A stretch of 64,000 nucleotides of DNA, from assembly GCA_029561455.1 (NCBI GenBank), contig JAKQIY010000030.1, positions 124,001-188,000 on the forward strand, in the 5' to 3' direction. This stretch comes from a bacterium (GTDB taxonomy: Bacteria > Zhuqueibacterota > Zhuqueibacteria > Residuimicrobiales > Krinioviventaceae). Below, in pieces: positions 18,864 to 23,451 of the stretch (positions within the stretch are counted from its first letter, which is position 1; the number at the start of each line of letters is the position of its first letter). A program made the position numbers and the translations under genes. The notes under the pieces were generated by a model. That model saw only the letters and a list, made by a program, of their open reading frames with translations. It was not told the origin of the DNA and did no database searches.

Positions 18864-20111
18864 TTATTCTCTAGCCTTTAATTTACCGTTTTGCAGGCGT
18901 TCCGGAACCCAGCCGGCCGGAACCGGTTTGGGCCAGGTGTAGAAATTTTTACTTTCTATGGTCGCGCCGTTATTGGCTGCGCTGGTGTACAGAGCCTCTA
19001 CCTGTCCCAGAATATTGACCGCCTGAATAGCGTTGCGTTGATATTTTTCTCTTTTCACAACGCAGTGCAAAAATTCCACCAGTTCCCGGGCAAACGGGTC
19101 ATGATAGGGCAGGTCGAAATACTGCCAGTGGTCGCGCCATTCGATCTTGCCGCCAACAACCGATTTTTCCCAGCGGTTGGCCGGGGCGGTCTCTTTCCAT
19201 TGCACTTTTAGGCCATAAAGGCCAAATACCATCGAGCCGCCATCGCCGTCTACAGTTATTTCCAGCGGTCCAAATTCGGAATTGACCCGCCGGTACCATG
19301 ACCATACCGAGGTATTGACCACGCCGCTCGTATGCTCGCGCCGCAGCGTCGCATAATCTTCCACATCGCAGTTGATAATGGTTTTGCCGTCGGTACTCAG
19401 TCTTTTGGGTACAATCAGCCGCGCTACCGCGCCCAGGCGTTCCGTTACGCCGAACAGCGCTTGGGACAAATACCCTTCATGGCACATATCCAGAATTATA
19501 CCGCCGCCCGCTTCAGCAAACAGCCAGTTAAAATCCGGACGCTGCCCGGAGAATTCCTTGTTGCCGCCCAGTCCCGGGCCGACTTCATAACCGAACAGCA
19601 TTTGTACGCTGAGCGGTTTAATTTTCGGCATTAATTCCATGGCTTTCAGCAACCCCGGCGTGGAAAGCATGTGGTGAACCACGCCGTGCATAAAGCCTTT
19701 TTTCTCCAGGGCGTCGACAATAGCATAGCCGTCGCCATAATTGGGCGCCAGGGGTTTTTCCATAAATACAAAAGTGGTTTTAGCATCCAGCAGGGCCAGC
19801 GATTCCAGCGCCACCTCACGGCGGATGCCGGTAGAAATGGTACAGTGATAGATTTGCGTTGCCGGGTTTATTTTGCGGGCAAACTCGTACGCTTCCGGAA
19901 GGTCGGCAAAATAATGCTGCAAGCCTTTTTCAGACGCCATTTTGCCAACTTTATCCAGGTTACGGCTGATGCCGATGGGTACCGGGATAATCGTCTCGCC
20001 GCCCACTTGCGCCATCTTGTCTCTGGCTATGAGCTGCAGGGCGGACAAGGCAATTTGTCCCATCCGCCCGGTGATGCCATGAATAATGACGGGTATTTCA
20101 AGATAGGCCAT
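18864..20111 (-). CDS. Gfo/Idh/MocA-family NAD(P)-dependent oxidoreductase
   Basis: The 415-residue protein has an N-terminal Rossmann-like region (IHGITGRMGQIAL near residue 10) and the family's catalytic lysine motif, seen here as FVFMEKPLAP. The C-terminal alpha/beta dimerisation domain includes GGGIILDMCHEGY. Family members oxidise or reduce sugars, inositols and related compounds. The glycine-rich motif is closer to GxTGxMG than the usual GxGxxG, so cofactor preference is unclear. GGAGAA lies just before the ATG. It lies 73 bases downstream of asd on the same strand and may share its transcript; no pathway link is evident. Confidence 0.82.
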   Translation of the reverse strand: MAYLEIPVIIHGITGRMGQIALSALQLIARDKMAQVGGETIIPVPIGISRNLDKVGKMASEKGLQHYFADLPEAYEFARKINPATQIYHCTISTGIRREVALESLALLDAKTTFVFMEKPLAPNYGDGYAIVDALEKKGFMHGVVHHMLSTPGLLKAMELMPKIKPLSVQMLFGYEVGPGLGGNKEFSGQRPDFNWLFAEAGGGIILDMCHEGYLSQALFGVTERLGAVARLIVPKRLSTDGKTIINCDVEDYATLRREHTSGVVNTSVWSWYRRVNSEFGPLEITVDGDGGSMVFGLYGLKVQWKETAPANRWEKSVVGGKIEWRDHWQYFDLPYHDPFARELVEFLHCVVKREKYQRNAIQAVNILGQVEALYTSAANNGATIESKNFYTWPKPVPAGWVPERLQNGKLKARE

Positions 20112-20184: not shown

Positions 20185-21243
20185 TTACAGCATATTTTGC
20201 CGGTAAGCCAGTTCGGCGTTCAAAACTGAACCGCCGGCTGCGCCGCGCACCAGGTTATTGGATATGGTGACAAACCGGATGATGTTTTTATTCACTTCCA
20301 GGCGGCCAATAGCCACAGCCATACCGCGGGTTCTTTTTGGCGTACCCAGGTTTACATCATAACGGGGCTGGGGGCGATCCACATCGGCCAGATAGATGAC
20401 CGGCTTTTCCGGCGTCGTTGGCAAACCGGCTACGGCAGCCGGAGTTTTATAGTTTTTAATCCCGGCAAGCACGCTCTCGTAATCGGCCGGTTTGTCCAGT
20501 TCCGCATGCACCGAGATCAGGTGCCCGATGATGGTAGGCACACGTACACAATGGGCGAAAACTTCCCAGTCCGTGGGGTGAATGGCGTTATTGCTAAAAG
20601 CGCCGCAGATCTTGCGCGTTTCGGCAACCATTTTGGGTTCTTCATTCTTGATATAGGGAATAACATTGCCGTTAATGTCCAACGCGGGAACGCCCGGATA
20701 TCCTGCGCCGGAGATTGCCTGGTAACTGGCGACCACCAGTTTTTTAATGCCGAATGGAATAATAGGCAGTAAGGCCATAGTGAGGCCGGTGGTGGTGCAG
20801 TTGGCATTGGTAACAATAAATCCTTTGCTGCTTTTTTGCTGGGTTTTTACCAATTCCAGGTGCGGATAGTTCACTTCCGGGATCAGGATCGGCACATGCT
20901 CGTCCATACGCCAGGAACTGGCATTGGAAAAGACTTTGATGCCTTTGGCCGCGGCTTCTTTTTCAATATCGGTGGCAATTTCAGTCGGCAGACCGGAAAA
21001 AGCAATTTCCACGCCTTTATCGACCAGCGCCTTTACTTCATTCTGGTCGAAGGTCATCTCTTTGAATTCAGCGGGTATGCCGCCTTTGACATGTTCCTTG
21101 ATCTCGGCCAGTTTTTTGCCGGTGCGCGCATCGCTGGCGCAGATGGCGGTCAATTCAAAGTAGGGATGGCCGCTTAAAAGTTTTAAAAAGTTTTGGCCGA
21201 CCACTCCGGTAGCTCCCAAAACAGCGCATTTTATTTTCTTCAT
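20185..21243 (-). CDS. asd: aspartate-semialdehyde dehydrogenase, archaeal/fungal type
   Basis: The 352-residue enzyme has the NADP-binding motif GATGVVGQNF at residues 10-19 and the catalytic cysteine in NANCTTTGL (about residue 150). Conserved C-terminal segments such as RTRGMAVAIGRL are also present. It reduces aspartyl phosphate to aspartate semialdehyde, the branch point to lysine, diaminopimelate, threonine, methionine and isoleucine. Sequence details (NxNCTT, TRGM) match the archaeal/fungal branch rather than the E. coli-type enzyme. A GAGGGA site precedes the ATG. The upstream leader contains a complete predicted attenuator. Confidence 0.95.
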   Translation of the reverse strand: MKKIKCAVLGATGVVGQNFLKLLSGHPYFELTAICASDARTGKKLAEIKEHVKGGIPAEFKEMTFDQNEVKALVDKGVEIAFSGLPTEIATDIEKEAAAKGIKVFSNASSWRMDEHVPILIPEVNYPHLELVKTQQKSSKGFIVTNANCTTTGLTMALLPIIPFGIKKLVVASYQAISGAGYPGVPALDINGNVIPYIKNEEPKMVAETRKICGAFSNNAIHPTDWEVFAHCVRVPTIIGHLISVHAELDKPADYESVLAGIKNYKTPAAVAGLPTTPEKPVIYLADVDRPQPRYDVNLGTPKRTRGMAVAIGRLEVNKNIIRFVTISNNLVRGAAGGSVLNAELAYRQNML

Positions 21244-21290: not shown

Positions 21291-21326
21291 AAAAAAGCCC
21301 ACAGTTAAGGTGATTCTGTGGGCTTT
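21291..21326 (-). terminator. intrinsic terminator in the asd leader (attenuator)
   Basis: Read on the minus strand, AAAGCCCACAG (21326-21316) and CTGTGGGCTTT (21304-21294) form a perfect 11-pair stem with an 11-base loop, ending in six T. It lies about 50 bases upstream of the asd start codon, downstream of a good promoter and a leader peptide. It would therefore stop asd transcription unless prevented. Confidence 0.88.
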
Positions 21327-21373
21327 ATTTTCTCTGATTTTTAAAACAATCAATGTATGATATAATAAAGCCC
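21320..21373 (-). promoter_or_regulatory. antiterminator pairing in the asd leader
   Basis: On the minus strand, GGGCTTTATT (21373-21364) is perfectly complementary over ten bases to AATAAAGCCC (21329-21320). The second segment contains seven bases of the 5' arm of the terminator, so the two pairings exclude each other. The first segment lies inside the leader-peptide reading frame, where a translating ribosome can cover or expose it. Confidence 0.75.
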
Positions 21374-21424
21374 GGAATAACCTCTGGTTTTTTTATTAGT
21401 TTTTATCTGGACAAGAGATTTCAT
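21350..21424 (-). CDS. predicted leader peptide of the asd attenuator (24 residues)
   Basis: An ATG at 21424-21422 opens 24 codons ending in TGA at 21352-21350. Residues 7-13 are IKTNKKT: lysine, threonine and asparagine, all made from aspartate, plus isoleucine made from threonine. In all there are four Lys, two Thr, one Asn and three Ile. The antiterminator segment starts at codon 18, so a ribosome stalled at codons 8-13 leaves it free. A ribosome that reaches the stop codon covers it. No strong Shine-Dalgarno site is visible, which is the weak point. The peptide itself probably has no function beyond sensing charged tRNA. Confidence 0.7.
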   Translation of the reverse strand: MKSLVQIKTNKKTRGYSGLYYIIH

Positions 21425-21471
21425 ATTAATTGTACCGGGTTTTATTAATTTTTTTGGTTATAAATTTATGT

Positions 21472-21500
21472 AATATAATTAATTCACAAGGCAATGTCAA
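21472..21500 (-). promoter_or_regulatory. sigma-70 promoter of the asd leader transcript
   Basis: On the minus strand, a perfect TTGACA (21500-21495) and TATATT (21477-21472) are separated by exactly 17 bases. Transcription should start near 21465, giving about 40 bases before the leader peptide and about 220 before asd. Confidence 0.8.
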
Positions 21501-21654: not shown

Positions 21655-23451
21655 ATGAAAACACAAAAATATTCGGTTAATCAACATCTTATAGAAACAA
21701 TCTTGGCGTGGGTAAATGCCGAAGAAATTGCCATTCCTGAAATTCAGCGACCTTTCGTATGGGATACAACTAAAGTTCGTGATTTTATGGATTCTTTATA
21801 TCATGGTTATCCGGTTGGATATTTAATAGCATGGAAAAATCCAAATGTCCGTTTAAAGGATGGAACTTTATCAGAAGGAAAAAAAATATTAATTGATGGG
21901 CAACAACGTGTCACTGCCTTAACCGCGGCAATATTGGGAAAGTATATTATCAATAAAGAATATCAAAGAGTTAAAATTTTTATTTCTTTTAATCCTATTG
22001 AGGAAAAATTTGAAGTTTTTAACCCAGCTATTGAAAAAAATATAATGTGGATACCAAATATTGCACCATTAATTAATGGTGAAGTCGGTTTGATCAAAAG
22101 TGTTAATAATTATTGTGCTCTTAATCCTCAAACGAATTCGGATGTGATTGAACGAAATATTACAAAGTTAATGAATATTACAAAAAAGCAAATTGGATTA
22201 ATTGAGCTTGCCTCGGATTTAGATATTGAAATTGTAACAGAAATTTTTATCCGTATTAATTCAAAAGGAGTGGTGTTAAGTCAGGCAGATTTTGCAATGT
22301 CAAAGATAACATCCAATGAAAAGTTTAATGGTCCGATTATTAGAAAATGTATTGATTACTTTTGCCATTTAGCTGTTGCGCCGGAATTTTATCAGACCAT
22401 TGAAGATATAGATAAGGATTTTTGCAAAACGCACTATTTTCAAAAAATGAGCTGGCTAAAGGAAGAGAATGATGATTTGTATGATCCTGATTATAGTGAT
22501 TTATTAAGAGTTGCTTTCACATCCAAATTTGAAAGAGGACGGTTATCTGATTTGGTTGCTCTTTTATCAGGTCGTAATTTCGAAACCAGAGGGTATGAAG
22601 AAGAGATAGCAAAATTATCTTTTGAAAAATTGGAAAATGGGCTTTTGAATTTTATAAATGAAAACAATTTTAAAAAATTTATTATGATTATACGCTCGGC
22701 TGGTTTTATTTCTTCAAGCCTTGTAAGATCACAAAATGCTTTAAACTTTGCATATATTGTTTATTTGAAATTACGCGAGATGAAATATGAATCTGCTGAA
22801 ATCGAGTCTTTTGTAAGAAAATGGTTTGTGATGTCAATTTTGACAGGTCGATATTCTGGTTCCCCTGAAAGTTCTTTTGATTTTGATATTAAACAAATTA
22901 CTAACAAAGGTATGAAAGAATTTCTCCTGGATATTGAAAGTGCAGAATTATCAGATGCCTATTGGAATGCTTCATTACCCCAAAGTCTCAATTCTTCTGT
23001 TGCAAGTAGTCCTTATTTAAATGTCTTTCTTGCAGCCCAGGTCAGGGCAAATGATAAAGGTTTTCTTTCAAAAGATATTTTAATCGCGGATCTTATAACA
23101 TTGAAAGGAGATATTCATCACATTTTTCCCAAAGACTATTTAAAGTCATTTGGCTTAAACCGTAGTGATTATAACCAGATAGCAAATTATGTTTATATGC
23201 AATCAGAAATAAATATTAGGGTAGGCAATAAATCACCTTTAATTTACTTTAATGAAATTTTAAATCAGATACTTAATGGTGGTCTTAAGTATGGTGGTAT
23301 AAATAACAAAGAACAATTAAAAGAAAATTTTCAAATGAACTGTATTCCTGAAACTGTTTTTAATATGGATATAGAAGATTATGAGGAGTTTTTAAAGCAA
23401 AGAAGAATTTTAATGGCAAAAAAAATTAGTAATTATTATTTTTTACTATAA
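21655..23451 (+). CDS. DUF262 and HNH (GmrSD-like) protein, probable defence nuclease
   Basis: The 598-residue protein has an N-terminal DUF262 domain with IPEIQRPFVWD (residues 27-37), FMDSLYHGYPVG and the DGQQR motif (residues 81-85). Its C-terminal part carries GDIHHIFPKDYL near residue 487, the His-rich motif of the DUF1524/HNH nuclease region. GmrS/GmrD and related single-chain proteins restrict phage with modified DNA, using NTP through DUF262. The gene is much richer in A and T than its neighbours and stands alone, which suggests acquisition. No methylase or other defence gene is adjacent. AAGGA lies before the ATG. Confidence 0.82.
   Translation: MKTQKYSVNQHLIETILAWVNAEEIAIPEIQRPFVWDTTKVRDFMDSLYHGYPVGYLIAWKNPNVRLKDGTLSEGKKILIDGQQRVTALTAAILGKYIINKEYQRVKIFISFNPIEEKFEVFNPAIEKNIMWIPNIAPLINGEVGLIKSVNNYCALNPQTNSDVIERNITKLMNITKKQIGLIELASDLDIEIVTEIFIRINSKGVVLSQADFAMSKITSNEKFNGPIIRKCIDYFCHLAVAPEFYQTIEDIDKDFCKTHYFQKMSWLKEENDDLYDPDYSDLLRVAFTSKFERGRLSDLVALLSGRNFETRGYEEEIAKLSFEKLENGLLNFINENNFKKFIMIIRSAGFISSSLVRSQNALNFAYIVYLKLREMKYESAEIESFVRKWFVMSILTGRYSGSPESSFDFDIKQITNKGMKEFLLDIESAELSDAYWNASLPQSLNSSVASSPYLNVFLAAQVRANDKGFLSKDILIADLITLKGDIHHIFPKDYLKSFGLNRSDYNQIANYVYMQSEINIRVGNKSPLIYFNEILNQILNGGLKYGGINNKEQLKENFQMNCIPETVFNMDIEDYEEFLKQRRILMAKKISNYYFLL

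Follow-up and report, generated by a model that had tools for sequence, protein, structure and literature searches.

A probable ribosome-mediated transcription attenuator in the asd leader of an uncultured FCB-group phylum

Transcription attenuation by way of a translated leader is a mechanism known for decades; what is new is the present case at asd, in an uncultured phylum of the FCB group. The leader of E. coli thrABC (thrL, RF00506) resembles it in having a peptide with Thr codons, an antiterminator and a terminator that exclude each other, and a downstream gene of the aspartate-family pathway, but it reads Thr/Ile codons, precedes thrABC and belongs to the Gammaproteobacteria, whereas here the codons are Thr and Lys (and Met), the gene is asd and the phylum is of the FCB group. 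The trp and his leaders (Trp_leader, RF00513; His_leader, RF00514) follow the same logic of 1:2, 2:3 and 3:4 pairings with control codons just 5' of arm 2; they serve other amino acids and genes, and in our locus arm 1 lies 5' of the start codon rather than in the peptide-coding stretch. The uORF attenuators of ilvB (ilvB-II in Corynebacterium, ilvB-OMG in various phyla; PMC10272879) likewise set an ORF rich in end-product codons before a biosynthetic gene, but they act at ilvB and respond to branched-chain amino acids (and Thr), not to Thr and Lys at asd. As of 2010, leader-peptide systems were considered undemonstrated beyond Proteobacteria and Actinobacteria (PMC2965389). Since then attenuation has been inferred at ilvB in several phyla, evidence that it is widespread (PMC10272879), and before amino-acid operons of Flavobacterium psychrophilum, an FCB-group bacterium of another phylum, in a passage that mentions no asd case (PMC9723704). 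The earlier note on this DNA, which called such control unexpected for an FCB-type genome, therefore overstated the case. The literature searched, with most subscription journals outside its coverage, contained no paper on an asd attenuator.

The candidate leader lies on the minus strand of the window, by which we mean the whole 64-kb stretch of DNA analysed. The window genome shares its order with a 'candidate division KSB1 bacterium', candidate division KSB1 being a name that NCBI now places within Candidatus Zhuqueibacterota, FCB group. The asd product catalyses a step shared by Lys, Met and Thr synthesis. To describe its gene as a single asd gene, as had been done, was an overstatement: asd is followed by a Gfo/Idh/MocA-type gene in the same orientation (also in congener G001), probably co-transcribed with it, and asd-aspartokinase operons elsewhere have leaders of the same kind. 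The divergent GmrSD_N gene on the other side of the leader is missing from the corresponding place in congener G001.

The leader contains what the earlier note had read in it, namely a TTGACA/TATATT promoter with 17-base spacing, a 24-codon ORF with IKTNKKT at residues 7-13, a ten-base pairing of fully complementary arms 2 and 3 (21373-21364 with 21329-21320), the first of which begins 12 bases past the last Thr codon, and an intrinsic terminator between the ORF and asd (21326-21291), likewise present in relatives. Antiterminator and terminator are mutually exclusive (Table 1). The 11-pair terminator hairpin stands, and its T-run ends 47 nt from the asd ATG (about 50 bases had been given), but 'six T' alongside 11 pairs uses three of the T two times over: with 11 pairs only three T stay unpaired, and with 8 pairs six do. 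What had been missed is a 1:2 helix of 12 pairs joining 21448-21434 to 21375-21362, with an inner hairpin, in the MFE fold. Of 74 promoter-like matches in a scan over 20 kb, the promoter at 21500-21472 scores highest (11/12), and transcription would be expected to start near 21465; inspection of the sequence 5' of the window's leader ORF revealed nothing like a Shine-Dalgarno sequence, a point against the attenuator, although purine-rich candidates for one are found at the leader ORFs of G006, G008 and G009.

Table 1. Features of the asd leader and its surroundings in the window
Feature	Position	Strand	Basis or remark
Leader promoter, -35 hexamer TTGACA	21495..21500	-	sequence and promoter scan
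Leader promoter, -10 (TAnnTT) hexamer TATATT	21472..21477	-	17 nt spacing from -35
Arm 1, TTAATAAAACCCGGT	21434..21448	-	5' of leader ORF; forms an anti-antiterminator with arm 2; MFE fold
Leader ORF, 24 codons, MKSLVQIKTNKKTRGYSGLYYIIH and stop	21350..21424	-	translation; counterparts in 9 relatives
Control codons ATA AAA ACT AAT AAA AAA ACC (IKTNKKT, residues 7-13)	21386..21406	-	
Arm 2, GGGCTTTATT, antiterminator 5' arm, within ORF	21364..21373	-	12 nt past last Thr codon
Arm 3, AATAAAGCCC, antiterminator 3' arm	21320..21329	-	overlaps terminator 5' arm
Intrinsic terminator hairpin, AAAGCCCACAG-AATCACCTTAA-CTGTGGGCTTT (arms 3 and 4)	21294..21326	-	
Six-T run at terminator	21291..21296	-	sequence
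asd, aspartate-semialdehyde dehydrogenase, subfamily TIGR00978 (asd_EA)	20185..21243	-	410 bits, cut-off 301
Gfo/Idh/MocA-type oxidoreductase gene, 3' of asd	18864..20111	-	also in congener G001
GmrSD_N domain gene (restriction endonuclease family)	21655..23451	+	divergent from asd

We compared these elements with chance expectation inside the window. Under a strict setting (terminator stem of at least 10, antiterminator of at least 9) the antiterminator/terminator unit occurs once in the 64 kb and in none of 10 dinucleotide shuffles, both strands considered, and the leader fold has a z of -4.45, with 0 of 200 shuffles equally stable. The 3:4 (terminator) helix is worth -18.0 kcal/mol, the 2:3 (antiterminator) helix -15.1 kcal/mol and the 1:2 helix -14.3 kcal/mol, the last two each unequalled in 400 shuffles. 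The seven-codon K/T/N/I run has P = 0.005-0.012 in shuffles. After its start codon the ORF holds two Thr and four Lys; in so A-rich a leader the Thr count by itself is not significant (P = 0.29), and an ATG ORF crossing arm 2 also appears in 11% of shuffled leaders. The window's peptide alone is thus weak evidence, and the decisive evidence is the comparison with relatives.

A TIGR00978-type asd was found in 39 of the 63 genomes of the class. Six asd genes of the window's family (G000, G001, G002, G006, G008, G009) carry the whole unit: a promoter, a leader ORF that runs across arm 2, an arm 3 able to pair with arm 2, and a terminator lying 23-50 nt from asd. Three genomes of a second family in the class (G025, G038, G060) have an aspartokinase gene after asd, and their leader peptides MNLITTSKTTMCTTIITMTCNICFWRGGL (G025), MKIKSTTKTMKMTMMKTMTCTCGFWKGGL (G038) and MIKSIIKTTKTTMMTTTCKCRFRKGGL (G060) are Thr-rich, with 7-8 Thr each. 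Another family supplies a possible but doubtful case, G019, in which the ORF runs through the terminator. Such a leader is absent from most of the other asd upstreams examined in the class; no attenuator turned up before asd in the phylum's more distant genomes, and the thrA/aspartokinase upstreams of the class have few terminators and no convincing Thr-rich leader. When a single mechanical rule taking terminator, antiterminator and ORF together was applied, it returned seven convincing units and one spurious one among the 38 asd loci of the class; 79 asd loci from other bacteria gave a single spurious unit.

The promoter form TTGAC[AT]-N17-TAnnTT, always with a spacing of 17 nt, precedes asd in all six of the family genomes that carry the full unit, and in G007, G019 and G011, the last of which has no attenuator; it occurs in 0.5% of shuffled upstreams. 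Its -35 box is of the sigma-70 kind while its TAnnTT box is Bacteroidota-like, and it may be a main promoter type of the order. In G007, a further member of the window's family, the asd leader (L009:1-160) has promoter and terminator and lacks, relative to its congener G002, the stretch that holds the ORF and arm 2; this leader is at a contig edge, and the loss reflects either a deletion or an assembly error.

Arms 2 and 3 vary together among the relatives (GGGCTTTATT/AATAAAGCCC, GGGCTTTAT/ATAAAGCCC, CAGGCTTGG/CCAAGCCTG, GTGGGCTC/GAGCCCGC, GGGCTTG/CAAGCCC and GGAAAGGT/GCCTTTCC), and arm 4 follows these changes (AGGCTT in G006, GGAAAGGCTT in G038), the co-variation of all three being judged by eye from the arms and not from a formal alignment score. 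The 2:3 helix has no equal among 400 shuffles in either G001 or G006, has P of at most 0.05 in G002, G008, G009 and G038, and is weak in G019 and in G025 and G060 (about -7 kcal/mol in the latter two; P of 0.19 and 0.34, respectively). As for the 1:2 helix, G002, G008 and G009 have it with arm 1 inside the ORF, in G025 and G038 it is suggestive (P about 0.1, with arm 1 lying within the first codons), and it is found neither in congener G001 (P = 0.27) nor in G006 or G019.

This helix bears on a different reading of the locus, one in which it serves as P1 stem to an aptamer whose ligand, be it lysine, threonine or some other metabolite, closes it so that the terminator is favoured, with the ORF incidental. 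Lysine riboswitches are known on genes of the aspartate pathway in other phyla, and the stem with its inner hairpin belongs to the window's MFE fold and is stronger than in any of the shuffles; we nevertheless consider a riboswitch very improbable and dropped this reading, which the helix had prompted, when the stem proved not to be retained in congener G001. It is missing from G006 and G019 also, the relatives share no conserved aptamer-like sequence while keeping the reading frame and the Thr/Lys/Met codons, and no Rfam family, the lysine riboswitch, T-box and other cis-regulatory families included, reached its gathering score in the window or in 12 related loci. A permissive search gave 20.8 bits for Thr_leader (cut-off 55) on the leader, and there is a sub-threshold match of the window's leader to His_leader (23.6 bits, cut-off 49).

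The codon content of the peptides is where attenuation parts from a second reading, in which translation of the leader ORF is itself what matters (for example through coupling or exclusion of Rho) and no amino acid is sensed, the codon bias being that of A-rich DNA. An A-rich leader does raise Lys, Asn and Ile codons, and the window's ORF is weak when taken singly. ORFs were chosen in ten leaders by one set criterion, that they cross arm 2, a start being picked among several in-frame candidates for G001, G002, G006, G008 and G025, which alters only the first codons, and the two other reading frames of the same leaders served as control. Thr makes up 45 of 249 codons in frame compared with 11 of 478 out of frame (P = 2e-13; an odds ratio of about nine), and 45 compared with the 20.1 (sd 3.6) expected from dinucleotide shuffles; within the window's family the Thr counts are 19/138 and 9/264 (P = 2e-4). 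Because this control shares the composition of the leaders, composition is ruled out as the source of the Thr bias, and we hold translation without sensing to be as improbable as the riboswitch. Lys (36/249 in frame against 40/478, P = 0.009) and Met (16/249 against 8/478, P = 0.001) are enriched as well. Asn (10/249 against 36/478) and Ile (16/249 against 33/478) are not above the other frames, and both were dropped as signals; of the aspartate-family signal proposed earlier, Thr and Lys are retained, Met is added and Asn is lost. The comparison with related genomes that had been suggested as a check thus yielded Lys/Thr-rich peptides as well as co-varying arms.

That the hairpin is a plain terminator beside a chance ORF, ending an upstream transcript or insulating asd with no regulation, is hardly credible, even though G004 and G015 have a terminator before asd and no clear leader, for promoter, ORF and antiterminator recur jointly in relatives, no sizeable same-strand gene lies between 21243 and 23605, and the next gene upstream is divergent, which means that the hairpin cannot terminate an adjoining gene of the same orientation as asd. 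The hairpins of G004 (L004) and G015 (L018) are terminator-like, lie 25-48 nt 5' of asd and are accompanied by no convincing leader ORF or antiterminator.

Because promoter, ORF, antiterminator and terminator recur at the asd genes of relatives while their sequence changes, and because Thr, Lys and Met codons are enriched in frame, we conclude from sequence comparison that the asd leader is very probably a ribosome-mediated transcription attenuator that senses charged tRNA-Thr, together with tRNA-Lys (in relatives also tRNA-Met). Transcription would begin near 21465, and a ribosome would set out on the 24 codons of the leader. Under a shortage of Thr or Lys, the ribosome would stall at codons 8-13 with its leading edge short of arm 2, as the spacing between control codons and arm 2 suggests; arm 2 would then pair with arm 3, the terminator would fail to form and asd would be transcribed. 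With Thr and Lys plentiful, the ribosome would cross arm 2 to the stop codon and cover about 7 of its 10 bases (taking its footprint to reach some 15 nt 5' of the P site), and arm 2 being hidden, arm 3 would be free to form the 3:4 terminator and transcription would end about 47 nt 5' of asd.

In the window species arm 2 is probably sequestered by the 12-pair 1:2 helix unless a ribosome has stalled. Arm 1 of this helix is a feature that counts against the attenuation reading, since it lies 5' of the ORF and a stalled ribosome would leave it uncovered, unlike in trp. Arm 1 also overlaps the region 5' of the start codon, so that initiation on the leader would compete with the 1:2 helix; we give this competition less weight because congener G001 does not share it. 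A broader proposal is possible but rather doubtful, namely that at least two families of Candidatus Zhuqueibacterota control the aspartate branch point by a multivalent attenuator, a single leader peptide reading the supply of Thr, Lys and Met together, and that there is also a species-specific variant whose 1:2 helix uses sequence 5' of the leader start and links initiation to antitermination.

With some ten genomes as evidence, attenuation at this locus would extend the classical ribosome-mediated mechanism to asd and to an uncultured phylum of the FCB group. It predicts control of the asd pathway where no genetics exists and implies coupling of transcription and translation in the lineage, and the family of leaders offers material for testing how many amino acids one peptide can read.

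A separate element, CCTCTTGC, was seen upstream of ilvB in 12 of 14 genomes of the order and in none of 7 genomes outside it (loci L191, in G000, about 150-300 nt 5' of ilvB, and L189, L192-L196, L198, L199, L202, L204 and L206). This element had no Rfam match and no T-run was seen with it. It usually ends a short ORF rich in Leu, Ile and Val (for example, one finishing in RLPIAIINLLLRSLR) and can pair with a downstream GCAAGAGG; it is perhaps a second, different leader-peptide control.
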